This document shows positions 10,546 through 46,835 of a DNA stretch of 64,000 bases, piece by piece. The stretch lies in NCBI GenBank assembly GCA_022385805.1, contig MU277746.1:1-64000 (forward strand). Direction: 5' to 3'. Numbering within the stretch: the stretch's first letter is position 1; the number at the start of each line of letters is the position of its first letter. The stretch is from Pilatotrama ljubarskyi (taxonomy: Eukaryota > Basidiomycota > Agaricomycetes > Polyporales > Polyporaceae). The notes under the pieces were generated by a model. It searched no databases, had not been told where the DNA came from, and worked only from the letters and a program-made list of their open reading frames with translations. The position numbers and the translations under genes are program-made.

Positions 10546-11893
10546 TCAGCGCCTGCTGAAGAATGCGTCGATCGCGGCTTTCAGCCTTGCCGACAGACTG
10601 GCTGGACATCGTGGACTCGAGGTGAGACGACGCAAATTCAGAGTCAACAAATATCAGGGCTCACATTTGGGACGCTTCTCGATCGCATCAACGACTCGGT
10701 CATGAGCACCGGCTTGCGTCTCATTGACGTCGGCGGGATTGTGAACATCCGCGCTGTCATCAGCTTCGTCAGAGGACTGGGCCTCTCGACGCGCACGGGT
10801 GCGAGCAATGCTCTCCTCCACGATCCTGGAGAATGGTCAGTACACCACGCTGGAGATATCCATGGCTTGGCGACGCACTTGACAAGCTTTTCGCGCTCCT
10901 TGACGAATTCGATGGGATCTGGAACGTTGTCCTCCGAGAACTGGGCGCCGAGGTCGAACCAAATCTTGACAATGGGAATGAGAAGATCACGCTCGTCCGT
11001 GAACATGCCAAAGATGTCCATCTCGTGCAAGTCTACGATTGCCTCGGCATCTTGTGACTCCTCGCCGTCACAGTCTGTACCCTGCTCGGATTCATAAGCC
11101 GCGCTCCACTGAGATTGACTTTCATCGTAGCTCGGGGCCAGGCTTTGTAAATCTTGAGCGAACGACGCCATTGATCGCGAAGACATCGCGTAGTTCCTAG
11201 CATCCTCCTCCACAGATAGGTCGGTAACAGAGGGGTTCGATGACGCATCTGACCGTGGTATGGCCCCGTGTTCAGAACGTTCGGCATGCGCGTCCTCCAC
11301 CTCGCACACGCGCGCGACAGTGGTGGCGGCCAGAGCCTGCCGCTCTTCCCAGATACGCATGCTCTTCAGTGTGTGCATGCCCCTAGCCCACTCCATCTTG
11401 GTGTGCTGGTCCGCAGGTAGCTCCGTCACCGGTCCTGCTCGGTAGTCGCGCCCGTCGTTCACGATGCGGACGTCGAGCTGGGTGTATGCCCCGAACCAGT
11501 GGTAGCAGTTGCTGAAAGGGAATGGCGGCTTCGTATGAAGTGATTCGCAATCCCCAAACGGATAGTATGTGTTGGGATGAATCGGCATGCACATATCGGA
11601 GGTAATGCAGAGCTCTGGGGCCTCGGGTCGAATGCGAGGACCAAGCAAGTACGCGCTATACTTGAAGGTAGGGTTGTCCGGGAAAGGGAGCTGCAGAACC
11701 TACAACCTTGTCAGTACGATACCGCCGGGGCAAAACAGGATAATGAACATACCACGTTCAAGTAGACGAGGCACTTGGTCTTCTTGAGACTGGCAGCCTC
11801 CGCGTTGGCGACGGGGTCGTCGAAGGGTTTCAACGTACTCTCGATATCCAACTCGACGACAGCATACGTACCCGGACGTGGGAAGAACGGCAT
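10546..11893 (-). CDS. family A protein, copy A2 (function unknown)
   Basis: Four exons (11893-11753, 11699-10879, 10825-10665, 10601-10546) with introns of 53, 53 and 63 nt give 392 residues. It opens PRPGTYAVVELD, continues LQLPFPDNP, and has the family core ITSDMCMPIHPNTYYP and PFPFSNCYHW. A long acidic, Ser-rich linker (about 120 residues, rich in Glu/Asp/Ser) precedes the second block EMDIFG, IVKIWFDL and NVPDPIEF. The C-terminus is short, basic and amphipathic (SLSARLKAAIDAFFSRR). No enzyme motif, signal peptide or membrane span is visible. It is head-to-head with B1 across 625 bp, one of three such A/B pairs here. The last exon rests on splice logic only and is the least certain part. 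Confidence 0.82.
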
Positions 11894-12518
11894 GTTGGAG
11901 TGTATGAAGGTGCGAGTTCAAAGTCTCGACGTGCAAGTTTTCCCCGGACAATCTGAAACGGACTTTATATGGGCAGCAGCTTAGCCACATAGGAACAAAG
12001 AAGCTCTCGTGAGCTGCATCAAGCCAAGCGTGCATTCGGCTGTGGAGCTCTATGCAACAAAGACGAACACGAAAGGTGTTTGTTCTTGGGCGGAACGGGT
12101 CCATGGGATGTGGGATAGTCGTTTTGAGCGAAGCCAAAGCAATGAGAGGCATAAGCTGTGGGAGGTGGTGTCTTGAAACGTGAGCAGTATCTCGGATTCG
12201 CGGTGGCCTATTAGTTGCGTAGAAGACGAACCGTCAGCCCGGCCTGGCGGACAATGACCTGAGCTACGCACCGCGCACAGATCGGGGATCTTGACTTTGT
12301 CCCTCAATATGCGGCCCGTGCCTCCTACGGTCGCGGACCTTCGTTTACAATACGCCAACGGTGCGGACAGATCCGTGGCTCCGGCGGGAGCGAGACTGTG
12401 GCTAAGCACTTGTCAGGCTACATAAAAAAGAAGGCAGACTCGTACCGACCGGGTGCACCTCTCTTCCCTGCGCTGGACTCGCACCTCAACTTACAAGCTC
12501 CCACCACGCTCCCCTCGC
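11894..12518. promoter_or_regulatory. bidirectional promoter region between A2 and B1
   Basis: This 625-bp spacer separates the start codons of A2 (minus) and B1 (plus). A TATAAA on the minus strand at 11964-11969 lies about 71 bp from the A2 ATG. On the plus side an AT-rich motif (ACATAAAAAAG, about 12420) lies about 100 bp from the B1 ATG. Confidence 0.55.
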
Positions 12519-13724
12519 ATGTCCGCACCACCCTGCCCTCAGTGTCTCGCCACCAGACACTTGTCTGGCGAATCTCTCAGGCCGACGACGCGGAAGGAAT
12601 CGCGGCCCGATCTCGGCTTCTACACTCCTGGCTACATCTGCTGCGTGCACGACAGCTTAGCCACCGCCATCGAGCTCATCTTCAGCAGGAGTCCCGGCAT
12701 CAAAGAGAACAAAGTCCTCCGCGACCAGTTCCTCGAGAAAATCAAGGAGATATACGCCGCTGCCGCTGCCATGAAGGACTTCGGCAAGGAACGTCCTTGC
12801 ATCATAATGAACACGACAGAGTTCATCCCGGGGCAAGGCGGCGCCCGCGCCCACCCTCTCATCTGTATCATGGGCACTTTCGAAGGGACGCCGTACGAGC
12901 AACTAGCCAGAGTGTATCAGCACTTCTGCGTCGCCGTGTTCCCAAACCGCGGTGTGGAGAAAGGAGGACGAGACCATATCCACATCTGGCCTGGGCCGTG
13001 GCCACATCCTCGTCAGTGGATTTTGGCGTTCGAATACAGGAGCCCCGGGCCCATCCTCTCTACGTGGCCGCCTCTTTCTAAGCGTCGAACCAACACCGCG
13101 AATACTCCAGAAGATCCTGTTTTCGAAGAAATCAAGAGGAGCTTTGCCCCGATGCACTGGCTCGACGCAGAAACATTCACTTGGTTCAGGGAGCAATGCA
13201 GCGAACGCCTTGACAGCTGGGATAAGATGTGCGGGGATGACCCGGACCTCGCGCAAAGTTGCGCATTCGAGTACAGAGTAAGACATACCCTTGTCTTTCG
13301 GGAATGAGGCGAGCACATACTGAGGCGCCCCCTGTAGCAGAAGTGTTTCTTCGCTCGAAGCCAGCGGTTCCTGGCCCGAGTAAGTACCTGGATCCAAAAG
13401 AACGCACCCCAATGACTTACTCATCCCATCTCGCAGGTGAATCGGCAGTCTAGCAGGACCAGCATCAACAGCCGTACCTCCAACTCTCGGCCGCGTACTC
13501 CGCTGGCTCCAGCGGTACCGAATGGTGCAAATCACTCCTTCTCGCGTTCTCCCCACCGTCCGGGCGGCTCTCCTGGCGGCCATCGGGCGAAAGGCTTTGA
13601 GGTAAGTATCCAGATTTGCCTGATACGGTATGCGGTGGTCAATGACATGGGAACGCGGGCGATCCAGGCGCGGAAGGAGAACTCGATGGGGCGCAAAGCC
13701 TCCCGCCTCTCTCAGGCGTCTTGA
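12519..13724 (+). CDS. family B protein, copy B1 (function unknown)
   Basis: Four exons (12519-13277, 13341-13379, 13437-13601, 13668-13724) give 339 residues. The conserved globular part (about 30-230) has TPGYICCVHDSLATAIEL, then GKERPCIIM, LICIMGTFEGTPYEQL, FCVAVFPN and IHIWPGPWPHPRQWILAF. A tiny 13-codon exon and then a Ser/Arg/Pro-rich tail (PHRPGGSPGGHRAKG) follow. The pattern of a short strand, an RPC motif and an ICxMxTF strand recalls the small-barrel PemK/MazF-like proteins and other agaricomycete proteins with RPC...CLMATF motifs that I recall, but this is a weak resemblance and no activity can be claimed. The ATG at 12519 is preferred over 12453 because B2 starts at the matching point (MS plus a short polar leader). 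Divergent from A2. Confidence 0.82.
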
Positions 13725-16700
13725 CTCTGCGTGTTCGGCCGCTCCTCGGCAAGGATGAAGATTGAGGACTATGTCCGTGAGCTTAGTCGAGGTTTGCACT
13801 GCGCGTTTGGAAGATATTCTACATACCCATCTCGGATCAGAATGTTTAATGAGAGCACCCTGTTCGTACGAGGTGCGTTGGATCAATGATGTACGCTCAC
13901 CAGATAGGCTGCCACTACATGCGGGTGGTACATTGTACGCTGCGAACGAACTTGAAGTGTCTGTCGGCGCAGGACCCGGTTTCGACATGGACGCCCCAGG
14001 AGAAAGACTGCACGAGTGCGAGTTACGAGGTCAATGGGAGTGGCACCCACGGCGGTGCACGTGGAACGTAGCCAAGCAAGCTATTTAGGAATACCATGAC
14101 GCGCTTATGGGCGGACGCGTTGTTCAACTACTGCACACCTGGCAAGACCTTGTAGACTCACCCTGGCGAAGAGAAAGACTACCGTCAAGTTGTTCTGTAT
14201 GAGGTAGAGCCTAGTTCTCCGCATACATAAGTCCACAAAGGCAAATACCAGTCAATATCAGAACGATTATTAGAGCGGCGCCTATACGGGGGCCACTGCG
14301 CCGTCGCTCCTTGAACTTGCCTCTTCCCTCTCCCTCTCAAGCTCTTCTCTCTTCGTTCCGTACTTAAGCTGCACCATCCATGAATGTCAATGCTGGTACG
14401 ACTCTAGCAAAGCAAAGCAATCTCACCCTGTCAGCCTGAGCCGCACGGTAAGCACATTTCTCCTTCGCCTTCCGCCACCGAAGTCCGTAGTCAGCGGAGC
14501 TTGCGTACCGCCGTCTTGTCTTGTGCCCGACTGCTCTAGTCCTTGAAGTCCTCTGCCGTTGAAAGCGGCTCCGAGTGTCCACTGTTGGAGCTCGATTTGC
14601 ACTTCCGAGTCCCAGAGTAGCGCTGCGTATACATAAAGCTCTGGACAATCATGGACCAAGTGATGGTGTTGAGCTGCCCGGCGGGCACGCGTCCAGGGAT
14701 CCTGAACAACAAGGCTATCATTTCCCTCTGGTCAATTTGTCACTGGACTTCGAGGGGCTCGGGCAGAACATTTGGGCAACCCGCCCTCGCTACTTGATGA
14801 CCGTGCTCGGCCGGTGAGTTCAGAGCCTTCCTGCTCCGTGCTTCTGTTGCCATTAGCAACATACGCAGAGCGGACGAACTAACTCACAGCTGCGACCAAG
14901 GCCGCACCCGACGCCGACGTAGATGCGGTTACGGTCAACGAACCACCAGTCGCGTTAGCGCCTAGTGCAGAGCAACATAGATGTGATCTGAGACCTCCGT
15001 GGCAGTCTGCGTACGCCATACATCGCGTGGCCTTGAACGATTCGGTCCCGGTAGTATTTTCGCCGCTGACGCGCTCAGGCTTCGCGTATCGACCACTTTC
15101 ACAGGAAGTGGTGGTGATCTCGACCGCACCTGGTCACGAAAGAGTTGCGACGAACAGCGCTGAGGCAGCGAGGGGCAAAGCACTGCGGACGTACCTGAGT
15201 TATCAGAGAACGATCGCATGGAACGTTGCTCAGAGGGACGACCTGTCGAACTTGTAGTGCGCTGGGAGAACCGACGTGCCTGAATCACCAGCGAGTGAGC
15301 GGCCGTCGTGACCCGGGGGACGGAAGCAACAACAGACGGCAGCCAACATCATCGAACACATCTCGCTCCACACTTTGCGATCACGGGCACAGGACGTGAA
15401 CGAGGGGCAGGGCAAGGAGGCGGTGGTGCAAAGTTTTGCAGCAGAAGCGAGTGCAAACGTTGGCACCTCCGTCTCGAGAAGTCCCCTGGTTCGAAGCTTC
15501 GAGTTCCCGCGATGCATACAAAGGCAAGAAGACTCCGGGAGAGCGCCCGAGACTCTGAGCGAAGACGGAGACGATGGTGACCTGGCTCGAGTGGAGAAGG
15601 ATCGCAGTGTTCCCCTGACGACTATGCGCGGCATCCCAGTCGACGCTCAAGCCCATCCAGAAGCAGCGAACGAGAACAAGTGATCCTTCGGGTCTCCACG
15701 GGAGAAGAAAGGCACCGACGAGAAGACGAAGGCACCGCGCAAGCTTAGTTAGCTCTCAGCTGGGGCAATGCCACGGTACCCTTGGCAGCGATCGGGAAGA
15801 CATGTCTGTCTCACGTCTTGACGACGCCTGCCTGTCGAGGTTGCAAGGCCTCCAGATTCGTTACTGCCGCCAAGTCTGCAAGCTTTCAGACCACCTCGGC
15901 GGTAACATCGAGCGAGCAGCGGACCCGCGGTGGAGCGTAGGAAAAGCGTAAAGTCTGATAAGCCGGGCCGAGTTGCCATAAGGGGGCAAGTCGGGAGAGG
16001 ACAGGCGTGAGATGAGCGCGATGGGGATGGCGGGAGGATGCAAGGGGAGAGAAGTTCGAGAAGCAGAGGCTAGGGCGGCGCACGAAAATGACGCGGAGGC
16101 GGAAGCGCAGGATCCGTGGTCATGGGCGGGGCGCGTGCCTGATGTCGGCGCGCATCGAGGGGTGCGTCGCAGCGCAACCGACGCGGCATGCGGTCAGCTG
16201 GCGTCGGGCGTAGGCGACTCTGCGGGCCACGACGCGCGAGATGACTCTGAAAGTGCGTCAACAAGACGAGAGAGTGCAGAGAGGACGACGAGAGAGCGAG
16301 AGCGAACAGATCAGCGGTGGTGGGCAGAACTTTGCAATGACAGATGGATCTTGTTTGTTTCTCAGCATCAGCCGTTCACAGCGTCTCCAGATCTCTTCAG
16401 CGTCCGCAGAGGTGCGGAGCAGTATCAGAGCAGTGCAGCTGGAACAGTTGGTCCTTTTATAGCAGAGATGTTTTGGTTCGAGGATGCGTATGTCGCGGGG
16501 AGCACGGCGAGACGGAGAGGAGAGCGCTGCGAGACAAGGGCGGCTCGGCAAAGAGCGAGGGGAGAAACATTATGGGCGCCTACAGTCAGGGGCACGGCCT
16601 GATTGGGAAAGAAGCTGGGGAGAAGAGCAGCGGCTTCCCATCGCATTCGCTGCTCAGCCTCCGCCTCCAATGCTCTCCTCCTCCCGCCGCGTCCTCCTCC

Positions 16701-16831
16701 TCCTCCTCGACTCCTGCGCTGCGCGACCCGTCCTCCTCTCTTTTGCCCCTGTTCAAACGAACTAGCAGCCAAGCTCGCGCGAGGTCCACAAACGACGACG
16801 AAGACGACGACGCCCCCGCCCGCTTCGCTCC
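13725..16831. other. 3.1-kb stretch without a supported gene
   Basis: Scattered short frames occur on both strands, none with recognisable domains or linked by good splice sites. Two minus-strand frames around 14420-14720 have a protein-like composition but no exon chain or homology that I recognise. The right end (16.0-16.8 kb) is probably the 5' region of the 7TM gene. Confidence 0.45.
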
Positions 16832-21097: not shown

Positions 21098-22209
21098 TCA
21101 TGCCCGAGCGGGCCTCGGAGAGGGCTTCCACCAGGACGGCTTGCGGCGGAGCAACCGCTTGGGCCCTCTAGCCTTCTTCGGCTGGTCAGAGCGATCCCGG
21201 TGCGCACATGCGGCGGAGGAAAACAGGCATGTCAGATATACAGGACGGAACGGGCAGAAAGGCGGGAAGAACGTACCGACATGTTCTTGGTGTCGCCAGC
21301 GAGTGGCTGAAGTTCTGCGTTCTCATCGAGTGGTGCCAAGGGGGTTGGACACCGCGACAAGGAAGCGCAGCTCTTGGTACTGGCGCCGCTCATCTGCACC
21401 AGGAGTGAGTGGTCAACAATGTCGGAAGAATTGCTGACTCACGATGGAGCCACAGCTCGCCAGGCGATACTTCTTCTGAGGTATCGGGTCAGTACCGTTG
21501 TCGCGGAGCTGGGCCAGCGCAACAGAATACTCACTTGTCTGTGCTCTATCGCGCATTGTATAGCGAAGTTCGGATCGACAGCGGTCAGGTCAAACCATTG
21601 CTTGATTGCGCGCTCGCAATGGTCACGGAGCGCATACGTCTCCCTTCTGGTGAGCCTGCGGACGGGGACGTCCTCTGAGCCGGAGCTGGTTGGGGTGCGA
21701 TACCCAGCCCGCCAAAAGCCCTTGATATACCGGGTACTGTCGAAGGGGTAGGCGATGATCCACTGGTCAGAGTTCGGCCACTCCGGGGTCGTGTGCAACG
21801 GAATGGAACCCTCCTGGCCAAGATTTGGAGAGACCGGGATGCAGAAGATCTTGAGTATCTCCGAGAGCTCCTCATAAGCAGCCCCACAGAAGGTCGCCAT
21901 GATGCAGATAGTAGGCGTCGTGCGCGTGTCGCTGGGGATGGTACAGAGCAGGACGCAGGGCCGCTCCTTCCCGATCCTAGAACCCTCTGCCGTGATGCGC
22001 TCGAGCGCGTCCTTGCACTTCTTGTACAGCGCTGGACATGCCTTGATCGTCGGGTGTTGCTCAAGGATACGTTCGATGGGGGTCGCCGTGGATTCGTAGA
22101 TACAGCAGATATGACCCCGCTGATAGCCCTTGCTGCAGTCTTCCGCGGACGTGGCACTTCCAGGAGTTGGAGGTGGCGAGTCAAGATCGTATGAGCTCCG
22201 ACGGGACAT
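21098..22209 (-). CDS. family B protein, copy B2 (function unknown)
   Basis: Four exons (22209-21535, 21475-21443, 21393-21277, 21181-21098) give 302 residues. The conserved block reads YQRGHICCIYESTATPIERI, GKERPCVLLCT, TICIMATFCGAAYEEL, FCIPVSPN and PEWPNSDQWIIAYPF, matching B1 step by step. As in B1, the second exon is a tiny 11-codon exon (KKYRLASCGSI) and the tail is low-complexity and basic (PKKARGPKRLLRRKPSWW). The shared exon layout shows that B1 and B2 descend from one gene. It is head-to-head with A3 over 371 bp. No signal peptide or membrane segment is seen. The function is unknown. Confidence 0.82.
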
Positions 22210-22580
22210 GACGAACGACGTTAAGAAACTGTGGGAGGGGAGTAGCTCTGCGAGGAAGAATGGACCAACGATATGCAAGTCGACTGACCCGTAGTGCAGC
22301 GGATTAGGAGGGTGCTGTCGGGATTACTGGGAAAGCGTGGCGGGAGCCCATAGCCACATCTTCATCTCGTAGCAGACAATAGCCCAGGACAACGGCCATC
22401 ACGCGAGGTGGAGTGAGGCTTCATAGACTTCCGCAAACAGGCGAGCATGTCGGATTCATGCTGTGCTGAGATGTGGCTAAGGTAGAGCCATCCTTTGTCT
22501 TCCTTTGTCTCGCATGCCTATAAAGATCGTCTAGCCGTCCCCGCCAGAGACGCCACACTCACCTTCCTCCTCTCGCCGCC
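22210..22580. promoter_or_regulatory. bidirectional promoter region between B2 and A3
   Basis: The shortest of the three A/B spacers (371 bp). A TATAAAG at 22519-22525 lies 62 bp before the A3 ATG, the same spacing as in A1. I see no TATA box toward B2. Confidence 0.6.
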
Positions 22581-23708
22581 ATGAGCTTTGCCCCTCTTCC
22601 CGGAACATATGCAGTGGCCCAAATCGACGTGCAAGCCACGTTGGCCGGCCTAGAGGATGAGAAGGCTCTATCGGCCGCATCTCGCCTTGAAACTAAGAAG
22701 TATCTGATATATCTCCACACGGTATGATCAGGGCACGACTATCGGAGGTGTCGCGAGAGACTCACAATGTTATAACAGCCTCTCCAGCTTCCTTATCCCG
22801 GGAGCGGACCGTGGAAGTACTTGGCCTACTTCGTGGGTCCCGACCCGCGCCCTGAGGAACCCGAGAACTTTATAACCTCAGACATGTGCATCCCCATCTT
22901 CCCCAACACAAATCACCCTACAGGCCGTGAGCCGGTGCGGCCCAACTCTCCATTCCCGTTCCCGAACTGCTCGCACTGGGTAGGATGGGACCTGGAACGC
23001 AAGGTGCGGGTTCTCGAAGGCCATTATCCGGCGGAGCAATCTGTCAAGCTACCACCCAATGAGCATGTCGACATGGAAGACTATTGCGGCGACGATCTCA
23101 CGAGGAGCCACCGGATGAAGGTTGACCGAGCAGCGGAGCCTGAGGTGAGTATCTGTGGACGCCGAGAGTCTACAATGCTGAATCTGGGCGCTGTAAACGT
23201 AGCCGTCCGTGGAGGACAAAGAGGTACCAGCACCGTCCACAGGCAACCCCATCCTCGCGCAAGAACTGAACGACTCCATCGATTCTATCGCGGATCTCGC
23301 GGCCCTGGACATCTTCGGATTCGAGCCTCGAAATGGCGACGATCTCCTGCCTGTAATTAGGATTTGGGTGGACCTCGCTGCACATCTCACCAAAGACGAC
23401 ATACCAAGTCCGCGGGGCTTCGTTGAGGAATCGGAGGCTGTCATCAGGTGCGTAGATGGACCGGGGTTCTGGTGCGGCGACGAGTTTACTGAGTGGCGTT
23501 TCAGTATCGTGAAGCGTGCGAAGGCGCGTAAGGCATTGAAGACCAAGCAGCAGTTGGAGAATGCTGGGAAGTTCAAGGTCTTTCGGCGTGCGCTAGGGTC
23601 GTGGAAAGGTGAGACGGCCAACCTACATGAGGCGCTACTGAATGCTCATATGTTCATTTGGCAGCTAAGATCATGTCAGGAGTTCGTCGTGTGCTCTGTT
23701 CGGGATGA
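22581..23708 (+). CDS. family A protein, copy A3 (function unknown)
   Basis: Five exons (22581-22721, 22779-23144, 23203-23447, 23505-23608, 23665-23708) give 299 residues, the shortest intact member because the central linker is short. It opens PLPGTYAVAQIDVQATLAG and KKYLIYLHT, then LQLPYPGSGPWKYLAYFVG. The core is FITSDMCIPIFPNTNHPTGR with PFPFPNCSHW; note Ser instead of Tyr in the NCxHW motif, shared with A4. The second block is LDIFGFEPRNGDDLLPVIR with DIPSPRGFVEESEAVI. The tail is basic (IVKRAKARKALKTKQQ). A3 and A4 are tandem sister copies in the same direction. Divergent from B2. Confidence 0.85.
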
Positions 23709-24231
23709 TTGAAAACGTACCCATCTTATCATTAAGTCATGATAGGCCCTGGGGATATTATGAGGCTTGATCCGTGCTTCGAAGCGAGTTTTAGGTGAAA
23801 GAACGAGAGGAACGGTCGAGTAAGAATTAGCTTCGCAAGGGAGCATCGGTTAGCACGTGTATGCAGACCCGCCTGAATTGGTACAGCCCGCCTATCCGTT
23901 TGGAGCTTCATTGGCATCGGCTTCGAATGTCGATGGTTGTCCTGAGCGAAACGATCCTAGCAGTGGCTGGGCATGGCCAGGTGGTGGACGCCGTGTGCGC
24001 CTACGACGATGAAGAGAGCGTCAGCGCTAACATCACGCCCGCCATAGCGGACCGGAGTGGGGAGCTGCAGGGGAGAGTGAACAAAGCGAGAAAAGTCCTT
24101 TCGAGAAGCCACCGACGTGGACGCATAACCTGCTGCAATGGCGGCCGCCCATTTGCATTATGTCTCTTGTCGCACTGGCACCTATATAGCATGGAGCGCG
24201 TGGCGGGGAGGCAGATACACCTCTTTCCATC
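23709..24231. other. intergenic between A3 and A4
   Basis: No gene is supported. A TATATA motif at 24183-24188 lies about 49 bp before the A4 start, so A4 kept a promoter-like element although its coding sequence is broken. Confidence 0.5.
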
Positions 24232-25378
24232 ATGATCTTCTGTCCTCTCCCCGGCACGTACGTTGTCGCCCAGATCGACCTGCAAGCAACATTCGCCGAG
24301 CTAGACGATCCCACAACATTCAAGTTCGCTGTTGCTGCTCACATCGAGCCCCGAAATTACCTCGTTCACCTGCACACGGGGTGTTCAGAATCATCTCATC
24401 TGCAACACAAACGCGACGACTCACCAGAGTTCAGCCTCTGCAGCTTCCTTGCCCACGAGCCGGGCCTACAAGTACCTGGCGTACTTGGTAGGCCCGGATC
24501 CCCGTCCGGACGAGCCCGAGAACTTCATCACATCCGATATGTGCATCCCAGTCTATCCGAACACAAGCCGCCCTATAAAACGTGAGCCCGTGCGACCCAA
24601 CAAGCCATTCCCTTATGTAAACTGCTCGCACTGGGTGGGATCGGATATGGAGCGCAAAGTGGGTGTCTTCGAGGGAGATTATCCGGAGGAGCTATCTGTT
24701 AAGCTACCGCCTCGTTAACACATCGACATGGAGTCGTATTGCGGGAAAGACCTTACAAGAAGCCACCAAGCAAAGATGGCCCAGTCACCACAGCCAGAGG
24801 TGAGCGCACTAGAAGTGCCGGCCTTCCGTATTGCTGACAATACATCACTGACAGGGAAGGGCTGCGCAAGACGATCCCGACGAAAACCCCCTTGATTCGT
24901 CTCCGGATGCGACATCGCTCGCGCAGGTTTCAGAGCCGTCTGAATGCTCCTTCGGCGATCTTGAGTGGATCGACATCTTCGGGTTCGAGCCCCGAGACGG
25001 CGACGAGCTACTGCCTGTCGTCAGGGTCTGGCTGGACATCGCGGGACACTTCTCCGACAAAGACATACCGAGCCCACGCGGGTTTGTGGAGGAATCAGAG
25101 GCCATCCTCGTGCGCATCCGACACGTGCTTACTCCCTCGATGCTGCCTAGTGTGATTCGTGCATCGAGGGCGCGCCGAGCAGTGAATACGAAAAAGAAGC
25201 ACGCAGGAGCAACCCCCCGCTCCAGATGGGGCGCTAGAGTTCGCGGACTCAGAGACGATGGTAAGCACACTCCATCTATGCGCTGCACCTCAACAGCACC
25301 GTGCTCATCGTGTCCCTTCGCCGATGCACAGCTCGCACTATTCTGTCAGGAATCCGTCTTTTCCTCTGCTTGGAATAA
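24232..25378 (+). pseudogene. family A copy A4, broken by a frameshift and a stop
   Basis: Closest to A3, with the same opening (PLPGTYVVAQIDLQATFAEL) and core (ENFITSDMCIPVYPN, NCSHW). Two lesions are clear against A3. The frame shifts near 24467 between LQLPCPRAGP and YKYLAYLVG, consistent with loss of one base. A TAA at about 24716 interrupts the stretch that reads LPPNEH in A3 (here LPPR, then stop). Beyond these the homology continues through the second block (IDIFGFEPRDGDELLPVVR, DIPSPRGFVEESEAIL) and a last exon ending TILSGIRLFLCLE, with plausible splice sites still in place. The decay is therefore recent. A tRNA-Ile follows 396 bp downstream on the same strand. Confidence 0.85.
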
Positions 25379-25773
25379 CTTCTTGGGTACGTACCTTACC
25401 ACTACTGCATCGAGAGGCTCCATAATCCTGGGTGTAGACACCCACCTAATTCGATGGCATGAGATACACCTAACAGTTCCCTCGTGGGACGAAGGGTCAT
25501 ACTGTACTTACCAGGGACTCTGCCAGTGAAGTCTGCCCCGCATTGCACGGCGCGAATGCTGCTGCAGCTCGGAGTATCTGCCACTTCTTGCAGTACGTGC
25601 AAAGGGTTACCGTAGATGACAAGGTGCCAACGGCCGCAACGTTGTACTTCAGTGTCCGGAATGACTGCTTTTCGAGGAGAGATGGTAGTGCATGCTACCA
25701 CCAGTACTAATAAGCGGTTTGAGGTTCACCGTGCAGACAAGTGGTAGGGTGCTATTACCAAGCTAACGCACAT
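25379..25773. other. intergenic, no gene seen
   Basis: Flank between the A4 pseudogene and the tRNA-Ile. Nothing recognisable. Confidence 0.5.
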
Positions 25774-25847
25774 GGCCGACTAGCTCAGTTGGTTAGAGCG
25801 TGGTGCTAATAACGCCAAGGTCGTCGGTTCGCTCCCGGCGTTGGCCA
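25774..25847 (+). tRNA. tRNA-Ile (AAT), T-loop variant, possibly inactive
   Basis: 74 nt, identical to the other full copies except that the T-loop reads TTCGCTC instead of TTCGATC. This changes the near-invariant A58, which is both part of the TFIIIC B box (GGTTCGANNCC) and needed for the T54-A58 pair. The copy may therefore be transcribed or folded poorly. Confidence 0.85.
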
Positions 25848-26576: not shown

Positions 26577-27116
26577 TTAGGGCCAGACAGGAATGTATGG
26601 GATCCCAACACAGCCAGCTATGCGCATCGCGACCGATCTGACATTCATACCACGCAGCTTGCGTAGCAGTTTAAGTGAACGAAGATCTGCAGGTCGAGTT
26701 TGCACAGTAAGCCCGAACGAAAAATAGATCCGTATAATCACGACGATTAAGCCCACAGCGGCGTCTGGGCTTTTGACTGCGTGGATCGAAATGCTCGATA
26801 CGCTCCCCGGAGGGCCCGGGCGCAGGCCATTTGACACCGTGACGCGGCTGTTCGGGCGAGGCGTGAAGAGCCGCATATGCGCCAGTGCGCGCCTCCTGTA
26901 TGATCCTGCCGGACACTCTGGCGAGCATCTGCTGGATGCGACACAAAACAGTTGACTCAACTTCACGATGGCTTCCCGTTCTAGGAGGAATCCAAGAGGG
27001 CAGGGAATGTCTTCTTCCTTCAGGTGATCTTCCAGGTCAAGCCATAGGTCTACGAGAGGTTGCAGAGCGACGTCTTGGTCCGGACCTGCAAAGATGTTCA
27101 TGGCCATGGCCCATGA
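26577..27116 (-). pseudogene. family A copy A5, 5'-truncated fragment
   Basis: Only the 3' half of a family A gene survives: AMNIFAGPDQDVALQPLVDL, WLDLEDHLKEEDIPCPLGF, then IIQEARTGAYAAL and the last exon LRSLKLLRKLRG ending IPYIPVWP. It is most like A6 (AMNIFGAPDQDVACVPLVDL; MPYVPVWP). The opening, the ITSDMC core and the NCYHW motif are absent upstream. The splice donor after the second block has changed to GTTGAG. A truncated duplicate is the best reading. Confidence 0.8.
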
Positions 27117-28369
27117 GTACACCGACTTCGTCGTGCACCGATCGTGACTCGTGGCTCGAAGTCGTGCAACAGTAGCTGCTCCCATCGGATCTAAGTATAG
27201 GCTAGATCAGAAGAAGAGCGATCGCGAGCCTGTGAGACGACCAATACGCAGAACTAGTCGCAGGAAATCGCAGACGCACTTCCTTGGCCACAAACGGAGT
27301 GATGAGACTTGTACTCCAGCGATACTAAACGGGCTGAGAAAGGTCAATTGTCGCGAGTTGGTAGTATCTGGGGGTTCGGGCTCTGCGAGGAGAACGGGCT
27401 TGGCCGCGGCGCTCGCGACGGAAATGCCGACAGGCGCGGACGGGCGACGGCAGCTGGACAGCGGGCCGATTGCACTTGAAGACGCCGAACGGTCTCAGCG
27501 CTCTGGTCCGAGTCGGACCACACAATGATGAAGACCTCCAGTTCTACCGAGTGGTCTAGCAAAGTCGGCACATCTGCTCGAGTTTACGTTCGCTATTTCA
27601 TCTAGAGGTCGTCCTCCTCTGACCCACCCCGCGTGTCCTGCTTCCGGAGGACATGCGCGGTGTGCTGTCGGTGCCTAGCGGTATTCTGAACGTACTTGTG
27701 ATGGGTACGCCTTCAATCGAGCTTCCCTTCGTCGCAATATCCTAAACAATCAGACATTCACAAGGGGGATGATAGGGGAGGCATGCAGGCCCTATTCTAG
27801 TGTGAGGTGCCGTACCACTCTCGGTCAGCATCTATGCCCACACGGGATCGCCGGTGGTGCAGTCAGCCTTCACACCATTGGCACTAGCACCCCTGCAATC
27901 TCCGTAGATCTCCTCGAGCTCAACAGGCCTCAATTGGTACAAGCAACGAACCTCCTGCGCTCGCGTGCACCGCAATCCCGCATGACCTTCGAAAGCGACA
28001 AGTCCTGTGAAGCCTTCCCACATTTCGTTGGCCTATTATAAGCCGACGATCAGCCGACTAGAGTGCTCCCCTCGGTGCTCACCCAGACTCGAGGGCGGAT
28101 GACCGTACACGCCCGCCCGCGACGTCACGCGCTCGCTCTGCTACAGGTACGTACTCCTCCCTGGCGTGTTCGTAATGCGTCCGGAACCCGTCTGGTTTCA
28201 GAAAACGTAGGAATCCAGGTCACGAACGCGCATCGTACGGCGCGCGGACGTGAAATGCTCGTCGATTGGTGGTGATGGAGCGGCCCAGCGAGCGGGCCGA
28301 CGCACACTATAAAACCCAAGGCGACGCTCGAGGTAGACGACGAGCTCGCCCTCGCTTCTCAAATACGTC
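27117..28369. other. intergenic; xylanase promoter at right end
   Basis: 1.25 kb with no supported gene. The right end carries the TATA box of the xylanase gene. Confidence 0.5.
28308..28314 (+). promoter_or_regulatory. TATA box of the GH10 xylanase gene
   Basis: TATAAAA, 56 bp before the ATG at 28370, within a typical ACTATAAAACCC context. Confidence 0.7.
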
Positions 28370-38400: not shown

Positions 38401-38772
38401 GACTGGTCGGCGTAGGGTAGCTGAAGAAGGGGGATTGTCGAGCAGACCAGAGAGCGAGCCGAGGCTCCGGGAGTGCATGAGCGGCATGTCGTCGTCTTCG
38501 TCGGGCTCGTCGGGGCGTGCGATGGCGAGCGACGTGGGAGGAGGCCGTTGGGCTGGCTTTGCCGTGGGCCTGAGCGGAGATCGTGGTGGAATGGGAGGTA
38601 ACGTTGTGGGAGAAGAGGAAGGGGCGAATGAGGCGGAGGAGGAGGATGTGGATGTGGATGTGGATGTGGAGGAGGTGGATAGGCGGAAGTCTTCAGGCGG
38701 GGATGCAGCTTGGCCCACGCGGCGAGAACGAGGCTCGCTGGGACCGGTCGTCTGCTCGGATAAAGTGCTCAT
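35474..38772 (-). CDS. Rho-family GEF with DH and BAR domains (Gef1/Tuba type)
   Basis: Activates a Rho-type GTPase, probably Cdc42, by nucleotide exchange at the membrane. Three exons (38772-38166, 38084-37816, 37753-35474) total 1052 codons. Residues 1-165 are a Ser/Thr/Pro-rich leader. The DH domain spans about 169-420, from KRTHALLELLSSERAYASDL to the signature LIKPVQRLLKYPLLL. A helical BAR region covers about 450-700 (MKSLRSAAYK, YEHFMQRFAKETTKWADSV, RFAGLQAKFYSDMRDRWADL). A long disordered Ser-rich stretch follows. The last 80 residues form an SH3-like module (ALYQCRVIHQCEPPPGVSYR to GNIGWVLASFLLPVD). DH next to BAR is the layout of S. pombe Gef1 and animal Tuba. The leader contains a short (GTGGAT)n-type coding microsatellite near 38650. 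Confidence 0.92.
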
Positions 38773-39888
38773 TTCCGTCGATCGCGACGAAGACTATAAT
38801 TCGGGTTTGGACTGGACTTCTCGCCGTCCGCTGCTTATCCGCGCGAGCGCCACGGAATCTGCAAACTGCCCGTCCGCCGCAACTGCCTCGCTAACAACAC
38901 CGCTCCCAGGAATCACAATCTGCTGTTTGTCACTGCTACAGCGCACGGAGACGACCACAGGATCTGGGGCACTCACGGTTAGCTCCCGGAGCACACGTGC
39001 AAGTCGCCTGGGGACGCAGTGACCCAATATGACGGAGGCTACTCGCTGCAACGTTTCCGGTCGATGTGGTATATGACGGTTGTCAATTGTGAATGCGGCT
39101 CCCGGCTGAAGAGGTCGGTCACCGGCGCTGTCGGTGCGAGGTGGTCGTTGGGGTGAGAGCGAGCTCGACGGTGAGGATGAGCGGGATGGTGGAGGTGCGG
39201 ATTCATTAACATCGGGGTCAACAGACGCGCGTGCTGGATGAATAGATCATGTGGCTGTATGCGTCCCGCAGGTCTGTCAGTGTCAATGTTCCGTCTGGAC
39301 TTGCACTGTGCAGCCACGATACAGGATGTGAGATGGCCGCAGCCGATGAGGAGAGCTCGGCGATGAGGGCATGCACATCTGCATGTAGAGGTTTGAAATC
39401 AAGTTCGATGCATGTTCACATGCACAGGTGGATGTGGCTTGAGCTTTTTGCTACAGAAAGGGGTCGACTCCACCGCCAAGACTAGCCGCTTCTCTTCTCT
39501 AGATCGCGGAATTATACCCCGACAATCGCACTGTTATTGTACCTGTAAACATGCATGCACACGGTATATATACAAGGCTTTTAAAATGATGCTCAGACTG
39601 AACAAAGCCGTCGTCTGTCAGCCCTGCCTCGGCCCGAGTCCCCGGAGCTCGGTCTGCCGAAAGGTAACGGGATTCAGAGTGCCGGGCGTCCCGAAGTGTG
39701 CAAGTTGGGCACGCCTATTCTTGCATGCCAGTGAGAACGTTGGCAGCTTGAACCACGACCGTCGGGAGACTCGCTGAGTCGCCTGCTCAGTAGTCGACGC
39801 AACAGTACAGCAGGTCAACCGGGACCGCCGAAGGGCGGAGCGCACGCAGTCGTTCTGAGCACTCCCACATACCTCAAGAAACCTGAAG
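38773..39888. other. intergenic between divergent genes
   Basis: 1.1 kb between the starts of the Rho GEF (minus) and the CoA-transferase (plus). No gene or clear TATA box is seen near either start. Confidence 0.5.
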
Positions 39889-41751
39889 ATGACTCGGACC
39901 ATCCTTCAAACCTGGGCCGAAGTGGCCAAGGGCAGCGTACTTGGTTACCGCGTCGCAGCACCTATCAGCTGCAGACCCAGCGTCAGGTATGGAGTATACA
40001 ACGGTACCGTTGCGATGCGAAGTGGACCAGACGAACCTTCTCATACTCCCTGCAGTACCAGGCGGTATAGCAGCAGGAGCATCCCTGGAGCGATCACTCC
40101 CGAGAATCTTCCTTTGGCTGGTGTTCGGGTACTGGAAGTCGGCCAAGTCATTGCGGGTCCATTCTGTGGACAGCTCCTTGGGTATATGCAACATTGTCCT
40201 AACCACTCTATCGCGTGCGCACTGAAGTGCGCGTTTTGCAGTCACTACGGCGCGGAAGTGATCAAAGTGGAACCGCCCGATGTAGGAGACCCGCTACGCG
40301 TCTGGAGAGAACGCGATGTCGACGGCGTGAGCCCGTGGTGGCGGAGCATCGCACGCAACAAGAAAAGCGTGACCATCGACATGCGCACGGAAGAGGGTCG
40401 AAGGTGCGCAAACCGGCGCGGGCCTGATAGCCTCTATCCTTGGTGAGCTACACGGACAAGCAGGTTAGTGAAGCGACTTGCCATTAAGAGCGACGTTATC
40501 GTCGAGAACTTCAAGCCCGGCAGTAAGTCTCATCGTGCATGGCGCTGATTGGCGCGGGACAGCTCATGCTCATTCGCGCCGTATCATGCAGCGCTCGAGA
40601 AATGGAACCTCGGACCTGCAGATCTGCACCCTCTCAATCCCTCGCTCATCTTCACCCGCGTAAGCGGATACGGCCAAACAGGCCCGTGGTGCTCGCGCCC
40701 GGGTTATGCGTCCGTGTGCGAAGCCGAATCGGGCTTCCGATACATCAATGGGACACCCGACCCCGAGACCGGTGCCCTGCTAGGGCCGCCTATTAGGCCA
40801 AACTTGAGCTTGGGGGACTCGGTTGCTGGGCTGCACGCTGCTTTTGGGACGGTCAGTGAGCATGCGTACATGAGACCGCGTTTGTCCTCGGCTCACGCGT
40901 TCGGATCCAGGTCCTGGCTTTGCTGTCTCGGAAGGCAAGAGAGGCACAAGGGCAGCCGGGCGGTCAGACCGTCGACGTGAGCATCTTCGAGAGGTATGCA
41001 TCGCCTGAGATGGCCATTTGCCACCGCTCGCACTGGCAGTTGACGCCTTCACCGACAGCATGATTAACCTAATGGAAGGGATCATCCCGGAGTATGACCG
41101 CAAGGGCAAGGTGCGTTGATCATACTTGTTTCCATACAGTACAGGCGAGCCTCTCTCAACTACCGAACCCGACAGATCCGGGGACCCTCAGGATCGTCCC
41201 TTACCGGAATCGTGCCCACTAACGCATATCCATGCAAGCCCTCTCTTTCTGCACCCAAGGCACCCTCCTACATCGTGATCGGCGCGAACTCGGACTCAAT
41301 CTATAACAGGCTCATGCGCGCGATTGGCCGGACAGACCTCACCGGGCCTCTCTACGCACAGAACCATCACCGCGTCGAGCGCCAGGCCGAGATCGAGGAT
41401 GCCATCTCCGCGTGGACGCGCGAGCGCACTGCGGAGGAGGCTGAGGAGGTGCTGAGAGCCGCGAGCGTGCCTGCCGGACGGGTGCTGAACGTGAAGGATA
41501 TTGTGGAGAGCGAGCATACGCAGGCGAGAAAGCTTGTGGAGGACGTGTGGGTGCCGAAGGAGGATGCAGAGGGCGGTGGGTGGAATGTGAAGATGTCGAG
41601 GGCAGTCCCGCTGCTGGAGGGGTGTGAGACTAAGACGCGGTGGGCGGGCCCAGAGCTCGGTGAGCATAACCGGGAGGTGCTGATTGGGGAGCTGGGGCTC
41701 GCGGAAGAAGAGTTCGACAGGCTCCGGCGAGAAGGCGTGATCGGGAAGTGA
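39889..41751 (+). CDS. class III CoA-transferase (CaiB/BaiF family)
   Basis: Transfers CoA between carboxylic acids. Seven exons (39889-40181, 40242-40403, 40464-40522, 40592-40851, 40911-40993, 41059-41110, 41176-41751) total 495 codons. Family landmarks are LAGVRVLEVGQVIAGPFCGQ, LLGHYGAEVIKVEPPDVGDP, WRSIARNKKSVTIDM, KSDVIVENFKPG, FTRVSGYGQTGPW, the substrate-loop region PIRPNLSLGDSVAG, and the C-terminal RQAEIEDAISAW with VPAGRVLNVKDI. The closest named relatives are formyl-CoA transferases and the mitochondrial glutarate/succinate transferase SUGCT. The N-terminal 75 residues are rich in Arg, Ser and Thr and may be a mitochondrial presequence; this part is the least certain of the model. 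The gene ends 73 bp from the convergent C45-family gene. Confidence 0.9.
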
Positions 41752-41824
41752 TGCGCTGAGCCCCATAATTGTTCTATGACTGCGAAGATCTATGTATTCA
41801 TGTATCCCAGCGCACTGCTTGGAT

Positions 41825-43109
41825 TCACCAGGGCATCTGGTACACCGCACTCTCCTCCCCACTACCCGGCTTGCCGAAGATGACCTCCGCCGAGGGCTCC
41901 CTCGCAGGGTCGAATGTCATGACGATGTTGAACAGCGTCTGGATCCTCGCCGCCCGGCTCGGGTCCGGAGAACAACATATCGCCTGCGGCGAGTTCGTCG
42001 TATCCGCGAACAACCTCTTGCGCAGCATCTCCCCGTCTACCTCCCCAAGGCGTTGCATCCCCAATTCCTCCATAAGCTCGCCGCAGATCGCCTTCGCGCG
42101 TTCGAGGCGAATTGGCGACCCTGACAGCCAGGGCGGCTCGTCGACCAGGTTGTTCTCCAGGAAGTGGTTCGTGTGCGCGAGCACGCCGTTTTCGTCTTCC
42201 TTGAGGTAGAACCCGCCGCGCGGAGAGAGCTCCAGTCCGCGTGCGCTGTCTTTGTCGGCAATGAGGATGTGCTGGCTCGACGCGGCGCCGCCGAGGGCTT
42301 CGATGGATGTGATAGCTGTGTCGACTGAGTCGCATTCGAGTGCGATGCGTAAGAGCAGATGGATGGGGAGAAGCTCTGTTGAGATGGGCCGGGCGCGGAT
42401 GGCGTTCAGGCATACGCCGACCGAGGCTGAGTTGAACCCGATCTTGCCAACGATGCCAGGCTGTCTCCGAGGAAGACAATCAGCGGGCCTCCATGATCCC
42501 TGATGAGGCGCGGCAGCATGAAACGCACCTCGATGACCATGTAAATCTTAGGTTTACCCGGGGCGTCCACGGAAGCCAGAGCGAGATTCTTGCCCACACC
42601 GTCTCGCCAATCCCAGTTTTGGGCGAGGATCTGCTTATGAACCCCCGTTGAGCGGATCTTCCACGCCAGGGCCGTGCAGCCATCGTCCCATTGACCCAAC
42701 GCGATCTCGCTGCGCGCATTCATCGCCACGATATCTAGCAAGTCCACACCTGGATCGGCTCTAGACCTGACCCCATCCGCGATCCCTTGCATCTCCTGGA
42801 GAAGATGGGGTGCGAGGCGGGCGATGCTCTCCTTGAATGCTGCTGCGACGCTGCGGACCGTTAGCCAGTCGAACTTGCAGGCCTCTTGGAAGAGGTCGCG
42901 GTAGATCGTGAGCTGATCGACGATCTGCGGTGCGAGGAGTTGACCATGTCCCAAGCCAATCTACGGGACCAAGGTGAGATGAATGAAGTCGAGTAGTGTG
43001 TCGATCGTACGTTCACCGGACTCTGTGCTACGCTGACGCCGATGACACTCACCTCATACGACGAACCTGACAGCTCGATCTTGATGAGCTCGTGGGCAAT
43101 GAGAGGCAT
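41825..43109 (-). CDS. C45-family peptidase/acyltransferase (penicillin acyltransferase-like)
   Basis: An Ntn-hydrolase of the acyl-CoA:6-aminopenicillanic acid acyltransferase (C45) family. Three exons (43109-43053, 42960-42529, 42460-41825) give 374 residues. The conserved IGLGHG motif follows the first intron. The autocatalytic Gly-Cys site is in WDDGCTALAW, with Cys about 114 as the nucleophile of the mature beta subunit. QNWDW, GKIGFNSASVGVCLNAIR and HTNHFL also match the family. Outside penicillin producers these proteins act on unknown amides or acyl-CoA substrates, so no pathway is claimed. No PTS1-type C-terminus is seen (it ends YQMPW). Confidence 0.88.
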
Positions 43110-43646
43110 TGGAGTTGAATGGGAGTATACGTTATCGGAGAGTGGCCGTGATGTGCAACCTCCAGGGGAATGGGGCTCAGAGCGATGACAAGATTCTATG
43201 CAGTCATGGGATTCACGAGACCAACAGGGTTCGCAGAGCCTGACTGCTTCTGACCGACCTCTTCTCGCTTATCGTAAAGGCCGCTGCTTGCATCTGGGTA
43301 TGTAGGGCGTCGCTAACCACACGCACAGGGAGCTTTCATGTTCGCGACTCCGAGTAGCACTGGTCCTGTCAAAGCGCTTCAGCTGCTTTCGAAAAATGCA
43401 GTAAGAAGTGTATGCAGAGCTGGCGAGCTTCGACGACTATTATATTACAACACTTCTACTGTTATCCGTACTTATCGAGCGATGGCAGCGACCATCAATA
43501 TCAGGCGCCCGAAAGCCTCGACTTCACCACGACTTCGCCATCATAACGTTCTGCGATAACTTCTGGCCCTGGGACTCTCCCGACCAACTAGCAGCTACTC
43601 GGCCCCACGTGAATTTTTCCGCACTGGGTTGAGTAGCTTCGCGAAG
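43110..43646. other. intergenic, no gene seen
   Basis: Between the C45-family gene start and the 3' end of B3. No motif or credible open frame. Confidence 0.5.
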
Positions 43647-44925
43647 TCAGAAATCGCTCCGAAGGCTTGGTAAGTCCGGGGCCGAGATTGCGATATTCGA
43701 CTTGAGGTGGAACCCGCAGGCGTCTTTTCTGGTGCAGCCTGCAGAGAATTGATATAAGGTGAGCATGAAGGTGAATCTAAAGACGATCGGAGCATTCACC
43801 GTGACAATCGTTGGCGAAGGCTTCTTGCGTCGATGTCTGGTGCGAATAGGGCCGGACTCGTTGCGTGCAGCGGCATGGCTCTCAGGCTGTACCTACACGA
43901 ATTGAAGCGTCAGCGGTGAACGGCAGTATAGGGACTATCGGGCTGCTCACGCTTGCAGGTTGTAGCGTGTGTATCGTTTCATGAAACTGACTGACTTCAC
44001 TCTCGTAGATAGTATGGGACATGATGCTTTTGCCCTTTCGAGGGCGAATCTTGTACGGGCTTGCAGATCCTCTCGAGTGAGTGGATCCACGAGATGTCGG
44101 ACGTGACCCCTATGAAAGTGCACGTCAGTCAGCGTCCAGGCGCGGCATAAAGAATCCAGCGTAACACGTAAGCTCACCGTTAGCGCGTACCACATCTTCA
44201 GGTACTCCTGCTCGAATCAAAGATGTGGAGCGCCGGTGGGGGTCAAGCAACCCGTGCCTCGTCGACAAGGCGTAGAGACGTACCCTGTACTCTCTTTCCT
44301 TCTCTTCAACCAGGGATGGGTTCGATCGGCAAAGCGCTGCCCAGGCTTTGCGCTTCTCAGCGCATATGACTTTGAGATGCGCCACAGCTTTTCTGCCGAA
44401 AGCCATGCCTCAACGCTCGTTAAAGCCCTCGGGCACGAACCACCTCGAGATTAGTCTGCGGGTGGTTTGATAAGGCCAAGCAATGATCAACTGAGCTGCC
44501 TTGCCTGCAGGCCACTCGGGTAAGGAATGTAGGTGTATATCGTCGAGGAAGCCCATGTCCTCCAGGTAGACTAGGACACAGAAGTCCTGAAAGATCGTCG
44601 GCAGGTCCTCCAAAGGAGTGTTGTCGAAGGTGCACATCAAGCATACCCGATACCCTGGCACACCAAGCGAGGCATCCTCCACGCAGTGCATTAGCACGCA
44701 TGGACGCTTCTTGTGCGTGGCTTGCTCCTTCTCTGAGAAGTACCGAAGTGAGACCTTTGAACGCTTGCGAGCATTCTCCGTCAAGATGGTCACGTCCTTG
44801 CCTGCCAGAATGTGCTCTACGGGAGTAAAGACAGAATCTTGAACCACGAAGACTTCGCCAGGTTGAAAAATGTTGTCGGCCTCTGGGCCCGAGTACTCGT
44901 CGGCTTCGCAAGAACACTGCGTCAT
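43647..44925 (-). CDS. family B protein, copy B3 (function unknown; contains an in-frame TGA)
   Basis: Family B core: GEVFVVQDSVFTPVEHIL, KKRPCVLMH, VCLMCTFDNTPLEDL, FCVLVYLE, IHLHSLPEWPAGKAAQLIIA. Exons are 44925-44284, 44207-44178 (10 codons, the tiny exon seen in B1 and B2), 44109-43951 and 43892-43647. An in-frame TGA lies at 44412-44410 between GFNER and GMAFGRK. Two readings are possible. A 51-nt intron (44393-44443, GTGGTT...GGCAG) would remove the stop in frame and give 341 residues, close to B1 (339). Alternatively, B2 aligns across the start of that stretch (FWRAGY against RWFVPEGF), so it may be ancestral exon and the TGA a lesion that truncates the protein after about 171 residues. 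Divergent from A6. Confidence 0.7.
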
Positions 44926-45463
44926 CTGTATGCTGTACCACTGCTAGGGCGAAGCTGGTAACAGAAGGGTTCGTGAAGTGAGACGTGTGTTGCAACGCAC
45001 CAGACCGCCGACGGAGGTCTCATTTATTCGGGACAGTCATGCTGAGGATAGCGACTGCATTCTATCATCCATAGCGACCGTTGCCTTGAGGACGTATGTT
45101 GCAGATACATTCCCGTCTCGGATTGTTGCTCGAACAACATAGGGGGACAACACGGCTTCGAGCTCGAGGCCAGACGCGCCATGAATGCATAGAGCTGCCG
45201 TCCAGGCTTGCTGTCTGAATTGTCCACGAACGGGATGGTGGCCTTATTGCCCAAGGCACGCCCACACTACCTAACAAGAGCAAACATGGCAACGAGCACA
45301 CGATGAGGACAAGGTGTTATTATGTTGGCTACCTTAACGACCGCTCACGTTGTCCGTACAATATACAATAGCAGTCAGCTTGTCAGCGCTCAGCTTATCG
45401 CCTCAGTCGCCCTCCCTCAAGTGCACTCGACACGCTGTTCAGGCTCACATACCGATCTGAGCG
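44926..45463. promoter_or_regulatory. bidirectional promoter region between B3 and A6
   Basis: 538 bp between the start codons of B3 (minus) and A6 (plus). An AATATACAATA motif near 45360 is the only TATA-like element, about 100 bp before A6. Confidence 0.5.
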
Positions 45464-46835
45464 ATGTCTTCACTTGACTCTGTGTACTTCAGTCCCAACC
45501 CCGGCACGTACGCGGTGATACGTATAGATCCCGTCGCAATGGTCGAAGAGCTCAAGCTGGATGATGCAGAAGCTCTATCTGCGGCGAAAGCGATGCACAC
45601 AAAGTCCTATCTCATATGCTTAGACTACGTGAGTTGTGCATCGCCGCTGGAAAGCCTTCGAAGAGCTTACCGGGCATTGTTGACGGCAGGACCTCGAACT
45701 ACCTTTTCCTGGCAGGCCCTGGTACGGATACGGCAGTTACCCGGTCGCACCGTGCTTGCGGCCTGAAGAGCCAGATAGAGGGCTCACCTCAGATATGTCT
45801 GTTGCGATATACCCGAACCAAAACCACCCCACGGGGCGACCTCCGGTTCACCCGGAACCAGCCTTCCCTTACGGGAACTGCTATCACTGGGTTAGTTTCA
45901 GCATCGACATACGTGTCCGGGCACGCCCAGAACTGTTCGACGAAAGCCGAGCGGTCAACCTACCACCGAAGGAACAAGTCGAGATGGATTGTTACTTCGG
46001 GCGGGACCTTATACGTGCTGCGGAAACAAAGAGGATGCGCCAAGAGATGCTTAGGTCACAGACAGATGAGCAGGTGAGAAGCCAGCAGCATTCCACTGGG
46101 CCCTTCGACCCCTACGTCGAGCTACGGTCAGCGATTCTCACCTCCAATCACGCAGGCGCATGTAGATCCCGCGCAGACTGGTCGTAGTAAGGCAGAAAGC
46201 TTCAGCGGGAGCTCTACGTCCGGATATGAAGCTTCGCGTGACAGCAGCAGCAGCTACAGCACGTTGTCAAGCGAAGACTCGGTTTCGGTATACAACGAAG
46301 TTGACGCATTGATGGCGATGAACATCTTCGGCGCCCCTGACCAGGACGTCGCTTGCGTTCCCTTGGTGGATTTGTGGCTCGATCTAACGGATCATTTGAA
46401 GGAAGAAGACATTCCCAATCCTCTCGGCCTTCTGGAGGAACGAGACGCCATCGTCAAGTGAGCGCTGCGCTTGTAGGGCGGTAGATACTTTACTCACTCC
46501 GTTGTCAGAATTATTCGGGACGCGCGGAGCCGGACATATGCGGCTCTCAATGCTCGTCCTGAGCCCCATAGGAAGGGGGAGGGAGCGACGCCATCCCATA
46601 GCGAGTCTGGGCCATGCTCAGACGCTAGCAGTGGCGAGGGAGGAAAACACCGTCGTAAGCCTACCCCCATGATCTCGAGAGAGTTTGGAGCCAGCTACTC
46701 ACAGATATTACAGGCTTTCGTCCCCTCAAGTTGCTGCGAAAACTACGCACCCGTGTCAAAGCGGTCACCTCCCGCTACGGCCCTCACCGGTACCTGTGGC
46801 AAACATGCATGCCCTACGTACCTGTTTGGCCTTGA
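45464..46835 (+). CDS. family A protein, copy A6 (function unknown)
   Basis: Five exons (45464-45628, 45690-46073, 46156-46457, 46509-46654, 46714-46835) give 372 residues. The opening is PNPGTYAVIRIDPVAMVEEL with KSYLICLDY; then LELPFPGRPWYGYG, LTSDMSVAIYPNQNHPTGR (Ser-Val in place of the usual Cys-x) and PFPYGNCYHW-like AFPYGNCYHW. After a Ser-rich linker comes the second block AMNIFGAPDQDVACVPLVDL and LKEEDIPNPLGLLEERDAIV. The last exon is basic and hydrophobic (RPLKLLRKLRTRVKAV) and ends YGPHRYLWQTCMPYVPVWP, a tail shared with A5 and A7. Divergent from B3. A tRNA-Ile relic follows 197 bp downstream. Confidence 0.85.

Follow-up and report, generated by a model that had tools for sequence, protein, structure and literature searches.

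The described systems that come closest to the locus considered here are bacterial toxins of the MazF/PemK/Kid type and paired genes that act in fungal mating and allorecognition. MazF acts as a homodimer, its antitoxin MazE is not known to have a MazF-like fold, and the HD1/HD2 homeodomain (HD) genes of mating loci occur as several clustered pairs. The conserved residues of MazF are given in PMC8086154 as Gly9, Gly26, Arg28, Pro29, Asn39, Thr51, Asp76, and Gln77, of which Arg28 and Thr51 are needed for activity. Divergent HD pairs have been described in basidiomycetes (PMC4915694), and het-B of Podospora anserina is presented as a pseudo-allelic interaction of two unlike genes, encoding HET/lectin-fold and PII-like proteins, in allorecognition (PMC10890737). 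Beyond mating, nonself recognition in basidiomycetes is called poorly understood in PMC8229728. Here, we describe a window of 64,000 nucleotides from contig C77 of the polypore Pilatotrama ljubarskyi, in which genes of two unnamed, polypore-centered families, A and B, form three divergent, head-to-head pairs, and we find that all seven B genes detected in the genome have a divergent A gene as their 5′ neighbor. These old, clustered pairs with a toxin-like predicted fold are a concrete candidate for nonself recognition. Titles and abstract openings gave no report of the A or B families, of fungal MazF-fold pairs, or of PemK in Basidiomycota, but most subscription journals lay outside the coverage, and this absence is weak evidence.

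Compared with the MazF/PemK/Kid toxins (type II toxin-antitoxin systems, PF02452), A and B are alike in their predicted barrel and, in the case of B, in the conserved order Gly ... Arg-Pro ... Thr. They differ in being eukaryotic and longer, in the tails of B and an extra strand-helix region of A, and in having no match to PF02452; moreover, the partner A is itself MazF-like in its predicted fold, unlike MazE. As in type II systems, every detected gene of the putative toxin, B, adjoins a partner gene in this one genome, although A and B are divergent and form no operon. In ToxN/CptN (type III) systems, the partner is an RNA, whereas a protein gene takes that place here. In architecture, the HD1/HD2 mating pairs come nearest, being also divergent pairs of two families, but none of the scanned proteins of either family has a homeodomain. 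The het-B system likewise involves two unlike genes, but its domains are unrelated, and A and B may be paralogues that share a single fold.

Divergent pairs in the window and across the genome

The first-pass annotation had described three divergent A–B pairs in the window with 625, 371, and 538 base pairs (bp) between start codons, and these values were confirmed exactly from the start-codon positions (Table 1). The longest ATG-initiated open reading frames (ORFs) between the start codons span 86 (A2/B1), 31 (A3/B2), and 52 (A6/B3) amino acids. Of family A, the window contains seven loci, and of family B, three genes. In the whole genome (33.1 Mb in 173 contigs), where only the best candidates were scored, so that gene counts are lower bounds, there are at least seven B genes, three on C77 and four on contig C79, and two B queries from different subfamilies returned the identical set. 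Family A has at least 14 loci, of which C77 carries seven, C79 six (one of them, A13, is a fragment), and contig C31 one. This fourteenth A gene (C31, 271724-272618) is diverged, and no B was found on C31. One B row on C62 (E 0.023) and one A row on C4 (E 0.052) were regarded as chance matches and not counted, and a signature scan of the C62 locus found no B-like frame on the matched strand. Similarly, a weak similarity of A7 to the B2 query over 31 residues (E 0.014) was left out of the B count.

On C79, all four B genes are divergent from an A gene, with gaps of 1777, 511, 381, and 488 bp. No B gene without an adjoining A was found in this genome, while half of the A loci (7 of 14) have no head-to-head B. 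In shuffles of a list of 30 genes, read in part by eye, complete pairing arose in 3 of 400,000 trials when order and strand were both randomized, in 2 of 400,000 when order was randomized and strands were kept, and in 56 of 400,000 when strand alone was randomized. The divergent pairing is real and stronger than had been stated from the window. Among ten other ORFs scanned, six matched Pfam families (Efg1, GH10, RhoGEF, CoA transferase, AAT acyltransferase, and P-type ATPase), and the remaining four gave no Pfam match.

An arrangement of this kind could also be expected if A and B were ordinary co-regulated RNA-binding or regulatory proteins, placed head to head for shared transcription and with no role in conflict. 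For instance, the intergenic region is short in six of the seven pairs, and the 9-mer CCCATCGTC lies in all four pair promoters of C79 (at 2850, 6335, 10516, and 21266) and nowhere else in C79 1-40000; its presence in four of the seven pair promoters compares with at most three in 60 simulated sets. The genome contains 38 copies of an 11-mer form, GGCCCATCGTC, three of which lie in C79 pair promoters, against 10 copies of a reversed control pattern. Nevertheless, CCCATCGTC is absent from the three pair promoters of the window, which contains a single copy outside them, at 1090, and the motif was chosen after the fact. In addition, the copy number, the relics (A4, A5, and A13), and the wide divergence fit a fast-evolving family better than a housekeeping pair, and we thus consider simple co-regulation unlikely.

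Predicted likeness to MazF-type toxins

Neither family had shown the first-pass annotation an enzyme motif that it recognized. For sequence models, this stands, as Pfam, NCBIfam, PADLOC, and PDB sequences gave no function for A or B, weak sub-threshold hits to unrelated families being ignored. For the predicted fold, it does not, since both families point to MazF-type ribonucleases (RNases). AlphaFold models were made separately for A and B, and in both cases MazF-type toxins head the structural matches, at middling scores; even the lowest of the MazF-type rows exceeds the first unrelated one by 1.1 (A) and 2.5 (B) Z units. CcdB and ToxN/CptN toxins score lower than the MazF type. Furthermore, 13 aligned B proteins share an invariant Gly38 preceding strand 1, an invariant Arg92-Pro93-Cys94 triplet at strand 2, and an invariant Thr120 following strand 3, which by strand order fall at the conserved Gly, Arg, Pro, and Thr of MazF. 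The Arg-Pro-Cys triplet is present in 16 of 16 B proteins and the Thr in 15 (B7 has Ser), at strands corresponding to the catalytic Arg and Thr of MazF, in a register that is not statistically supported. At the place matched by eye in A, 44 of 46 proteins have Lys (35) or Arg (9), and 22 of 46 have the Thr.

Profile comparisons gave no significant similarity to MazF. PF02452 (PemK_toxin) gave no hit, at E up to 1, in the 13 proteins of the B alignment and the 46 of the A alignment, and none in this genome at E up to 10, a search that did give hits in 3 of 14 control genomes. The untrimmed B profile was aligned by hhalign so that R92, P93, and T120 met R29, P30, and T52 of E. coli K-12 MazF (P 0.14), but this is not significant, and the score of the trimmed profile was matched by 189 of 300 shuffled MazF sequences. 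If the fold match were a generic small-barrel resemblance, A and B would be unrelated to MazF and their function would be something else. This seems to us rather improbable, given that two models built from two alignments put the same superfamily first, that the MazF-type rows stand clear of the unrelated ones, and that the invariant B residues follow the strand order of MazF. The MazF-like reading of A and B is a supported prediction.

A and B also resemble each other. A short C-I-P-x-x-P-N ... W segment is common to both families (hhalign scores 36.3 and 34.5), and the score of 27.5 for the trimmed comparison was matched or exceeded by 1 of 200 column shuffles, the best of which gave 35.7; it is therefore likely, though not proven, that the two families share an ancestor. 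The best reading is that B is a MazF-like, toxin-like protein and A its paralogous partner. The two are probably functional partners, and the predicted fold suggests, short of proof, that the pairs are a toxin-and-partner or self-recognition system.

A proposed toxin and antidote

We tentatively propose, as a possibility still short of an even chance, that A and B are anciently diverged MazF/PemK/CcdB-like branches that form head-to-head toxin/antidote pairs for nonself recognition or conflict. The two branches of one fold would have been inherited head to head, and repeated duplication of the pair would have produced the cluster of seven that this polypore carries. B would be a toxin-like endoribonuclease or RNA-binding protein, because it carries Arg-Pro on the second strand and Thr on the third, at places that correspond, by prediction, to the catalytic Arg and Thr of MazF. 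A would pair with B as MazF does with itself, yielding a heterodimer to which B would bring the more MazF-like site, and in which A would restrain B by keeping it inactive or else tune the specificity of B. Such a pair would amount to a eukaryotic version of a toxin-antitoxin system with the antidote provided by a paralogue, serving most plausibly in nonself recognition or genetic conflict. The asymmetry between the families, in which B is not found alone in this genome and A often is, would be the trace expected of a toxin and its antidote. A narrower version, namely, a multi-pair polypore locus for nonself recognition or conflict in which one of two paralogous MazF-fold proteins is an RNase and the other an antidote evolved from the toxin, is in our judgment doubtful. 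The clustered pairs described here would give eukaryotes a toxin-fold pair whose two members may share one ancestor.

Alternatively, A–B heterodimers might read self versus nonself in the manner of HD1/HD2, with no toxin or RNase activity and with the barrel as a dimer scaffold. Two families of one predicted fold, clustered divergent pairs, unpaired relics, and strong divergence between copies would all fit such a system, and divergent HD pairs in basidiomycetes (PMC4915694) provide a precedent. However, B conserves residues like those of the MazF catalytic site, for which a mere scaffold would have no use, and searches for homeodomains and STE3 receptors gave no place on C77 or C79, so that we find this explanation unlikely too. 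In fact, all 10 genome places matching the homeodomain model PF00046 lie on contigs other than C77 and C79, as do the STE3 hits, and a mating-type locus was rejected for these two contigs. A cluster of matches to STE3-type pheromone receptors at C18 288588-322525 is the probable MAT-B region.

Age and co-duplication of the pairs

Identity among the B copies is 20 to 41%, and that among the paired A copies 34 to 57% over the barrel region. A single very recent segmental duplication, which had been raised as the case against conservation of the unit, is excluded because of this divergence of the B copies and because relatives exist in other species. For example, in trees in which the A rows of this genome span the barrel region only (41–44% of columns), Trametes cingulata proteins group with A6 (P0003, 97/88) and A9 (P0036, 100/99), and others group with B1 (P0066, 100/99) and B2 (P0073, 98/96). 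All four are listed with a contig of 181,981 bp, which suggests that C77 and C79 could belong to a single locus.

Linkage of A and B appears in other species as well, where a shared contig was deduced from equal contig sizes in the match tables. Homologues of both families are given with equal-size contigs in T. pubescens (TRAPUB_722 and TRAPUB_733, 69,314 bp), T. cingulata, T. versicolor FP-101664 (2,618,999 bp), and T. polyzona (871,912 bp), while in T. coccinea none of the A hits has the contig size of the B (171,743 bp); with this one exception, the families are thus linked in all five named Trametes species where a B was found. Three further B hits sit on short contigs. Cubamyces and others have many A proteins and no B among the matches listed, from word-limited B searches with 4 and 10 hits that are not proof of absence. 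Outside the polypores, the A relative found is one distant Peniophora protein (E 6.8e-7). A predicted protein of 592 amino acids in Trametes cubensis (P0002) contains two A units in tandem.

The branching of the two families agrees in large part. B1/B2 (84/84 between clades), B3/B4 (97/96), and B5/B6 (87/83) are sister pairs, and their partners group likewise as A2/A3 (100/99), A6/A8 (within one clade, 97/88), and A9/A10 (within one clade, 93/82). By arithmetic noted after the trees were seen, three given sister pairs are held by 3 of the 945 unrooted trees with seven leaves. The seventh pair is discordant, as A12 groups with A6/A8, and B7, on a long branch, with B5/B6. Distance matrices of A and B correlate with r of 0.44 and 0.47, values equalled by 215 and 127 of 5040 permutations. 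The complete pairing, the three matching sister pairs, the correlated distances, and the linkage in Trametes support the earlier suggestion that A and B were duplicated together or kept as a pair; judged from sequence comparison, the unit is old and the pair has largely been duplicated as a unit.

This age bears on whether the pairs could be selfish poison-antidote elements, similar to spore killers in meiotic drive, that have spread by duplication. The linkage and the asymmetry would be the same as for a toxin and its antidote, and in the wtf fungal drivers, poison and antidote have a common origin. However, the family is old, since relatives are found in several genera, and great age is unusual for drivers, which makes drive very unlikely. 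Equally improbable is that the pairing is a by-product, with no functional tie, of block duplication in one cluster, as might be supposed from the confinement of A and B to two contigs (save for the A on C31) and from the single contig size of the T. cingulata relatives, because those intervening genes that match Pfam (6 of the 10 ORFs scanned) bear no relation to A or B, and adjacency and orientation have been held in all seven pairs despite divergence to 20–57% identity.

Gene models and minor observations

Table 1. Coordinates of family A and B genes and of the shared intergenic regions in the window.
Feature	Position	Strand	Basis and remarks
A1, unpaired family A gene	1100..2064	-	Similarity; 3′ end not settled
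A2, family A, paired with B1	10546..11893	-	Translation and ORF list; intron after exon 1
Shared intergenic region, pair A2/B1, 625 bp	11894..12518	.	Start codons: A2 11893 (-), B1 12519 (+), divergent
B1, family B, 340 amino acids: N-terminal CxxC, predicted MazF-like core, Ser/Arg-rich tail	12519..13724	+	AlphaFold model, structural matches
B2, family B, paired with A3	21098..22209	-	Core is one exon, 21529-22209
Shared intergenic region, pair A3/B2, 371 bp	22210..22580	.	Start codons: B2 22209 (-), A3 22581 (+), divergent
A3, family A, paired with B2	22581..23712	+	3′ end not settled
A4, unpaired family A copy, in-frame TAA in barrel exon	24232..25529	+	Similarity
A5, family A 3′ fragment without N-terminal barrel exons	26577..27134	-	Similarity; P0060
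B3, family B, paired with A6	43647..44925	-	Open core 44410-44925
Shared intergenic region, pair A6/B3, 538 bp	44926..45463	.	Start codons: B3 44925 (-), A6 45464 (+), divergent
A6, complete family A gene, 360 amino acids by splice model, C-terminus ...YVPVWP	45464..46835	+	Similarity, relatives
A7, unpaired family A gene	52155..53114	-	Similarity

The spliced B1 is 100% identical to an annotated NCBI protein of Pilatotrama ljubarskyi (P0064, 340 amino acids), and B2, whose exons after the core exon are not settled, is 59% identical to T. cingulata P0073 across 202 residues. In B3, there is an in-frame TGA just past the conserved core, after which B-like sequence runs on in the same frame; the third pair may therefore carry a truncated B next to an intact A6. 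The conserved exons are open in A1, A2, A3, A6, and A7, and the 3′ end is settled for A6 alone, that of A2 being the coordinate of the first-pass annotation. A2 is similar to A6 across two stretches, while A6 itself shows 97% identity over 53% of the query to Pilatotrama ljubarskyi P0001 and 59% over 74% of the query to T. cingulata P0003. A4 is a probable pseudogene, as seen from its reading frame.

C77 is 133,049 bp long here, compared with 137,104 bp for the contig given for P0001, P0060, and P0064, and the sequence may lack a few kb next to the window. The C-terminus ends in WP in 15 of 62 database A proteins, and PxxxxWP-like ends after a basic helix are common, many of the others being truncated models; the translations of A6 (in the region 46713-46835 of the window), A8, A10, A11, and A12 likewise end in this way. 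In five of the seven B proteins (B1, in the region 12519-12560 of the window, and B4, B5, B6, and B7 on C79), a CxxC motif lies within the first 40 residues and could possibly be a metal site.
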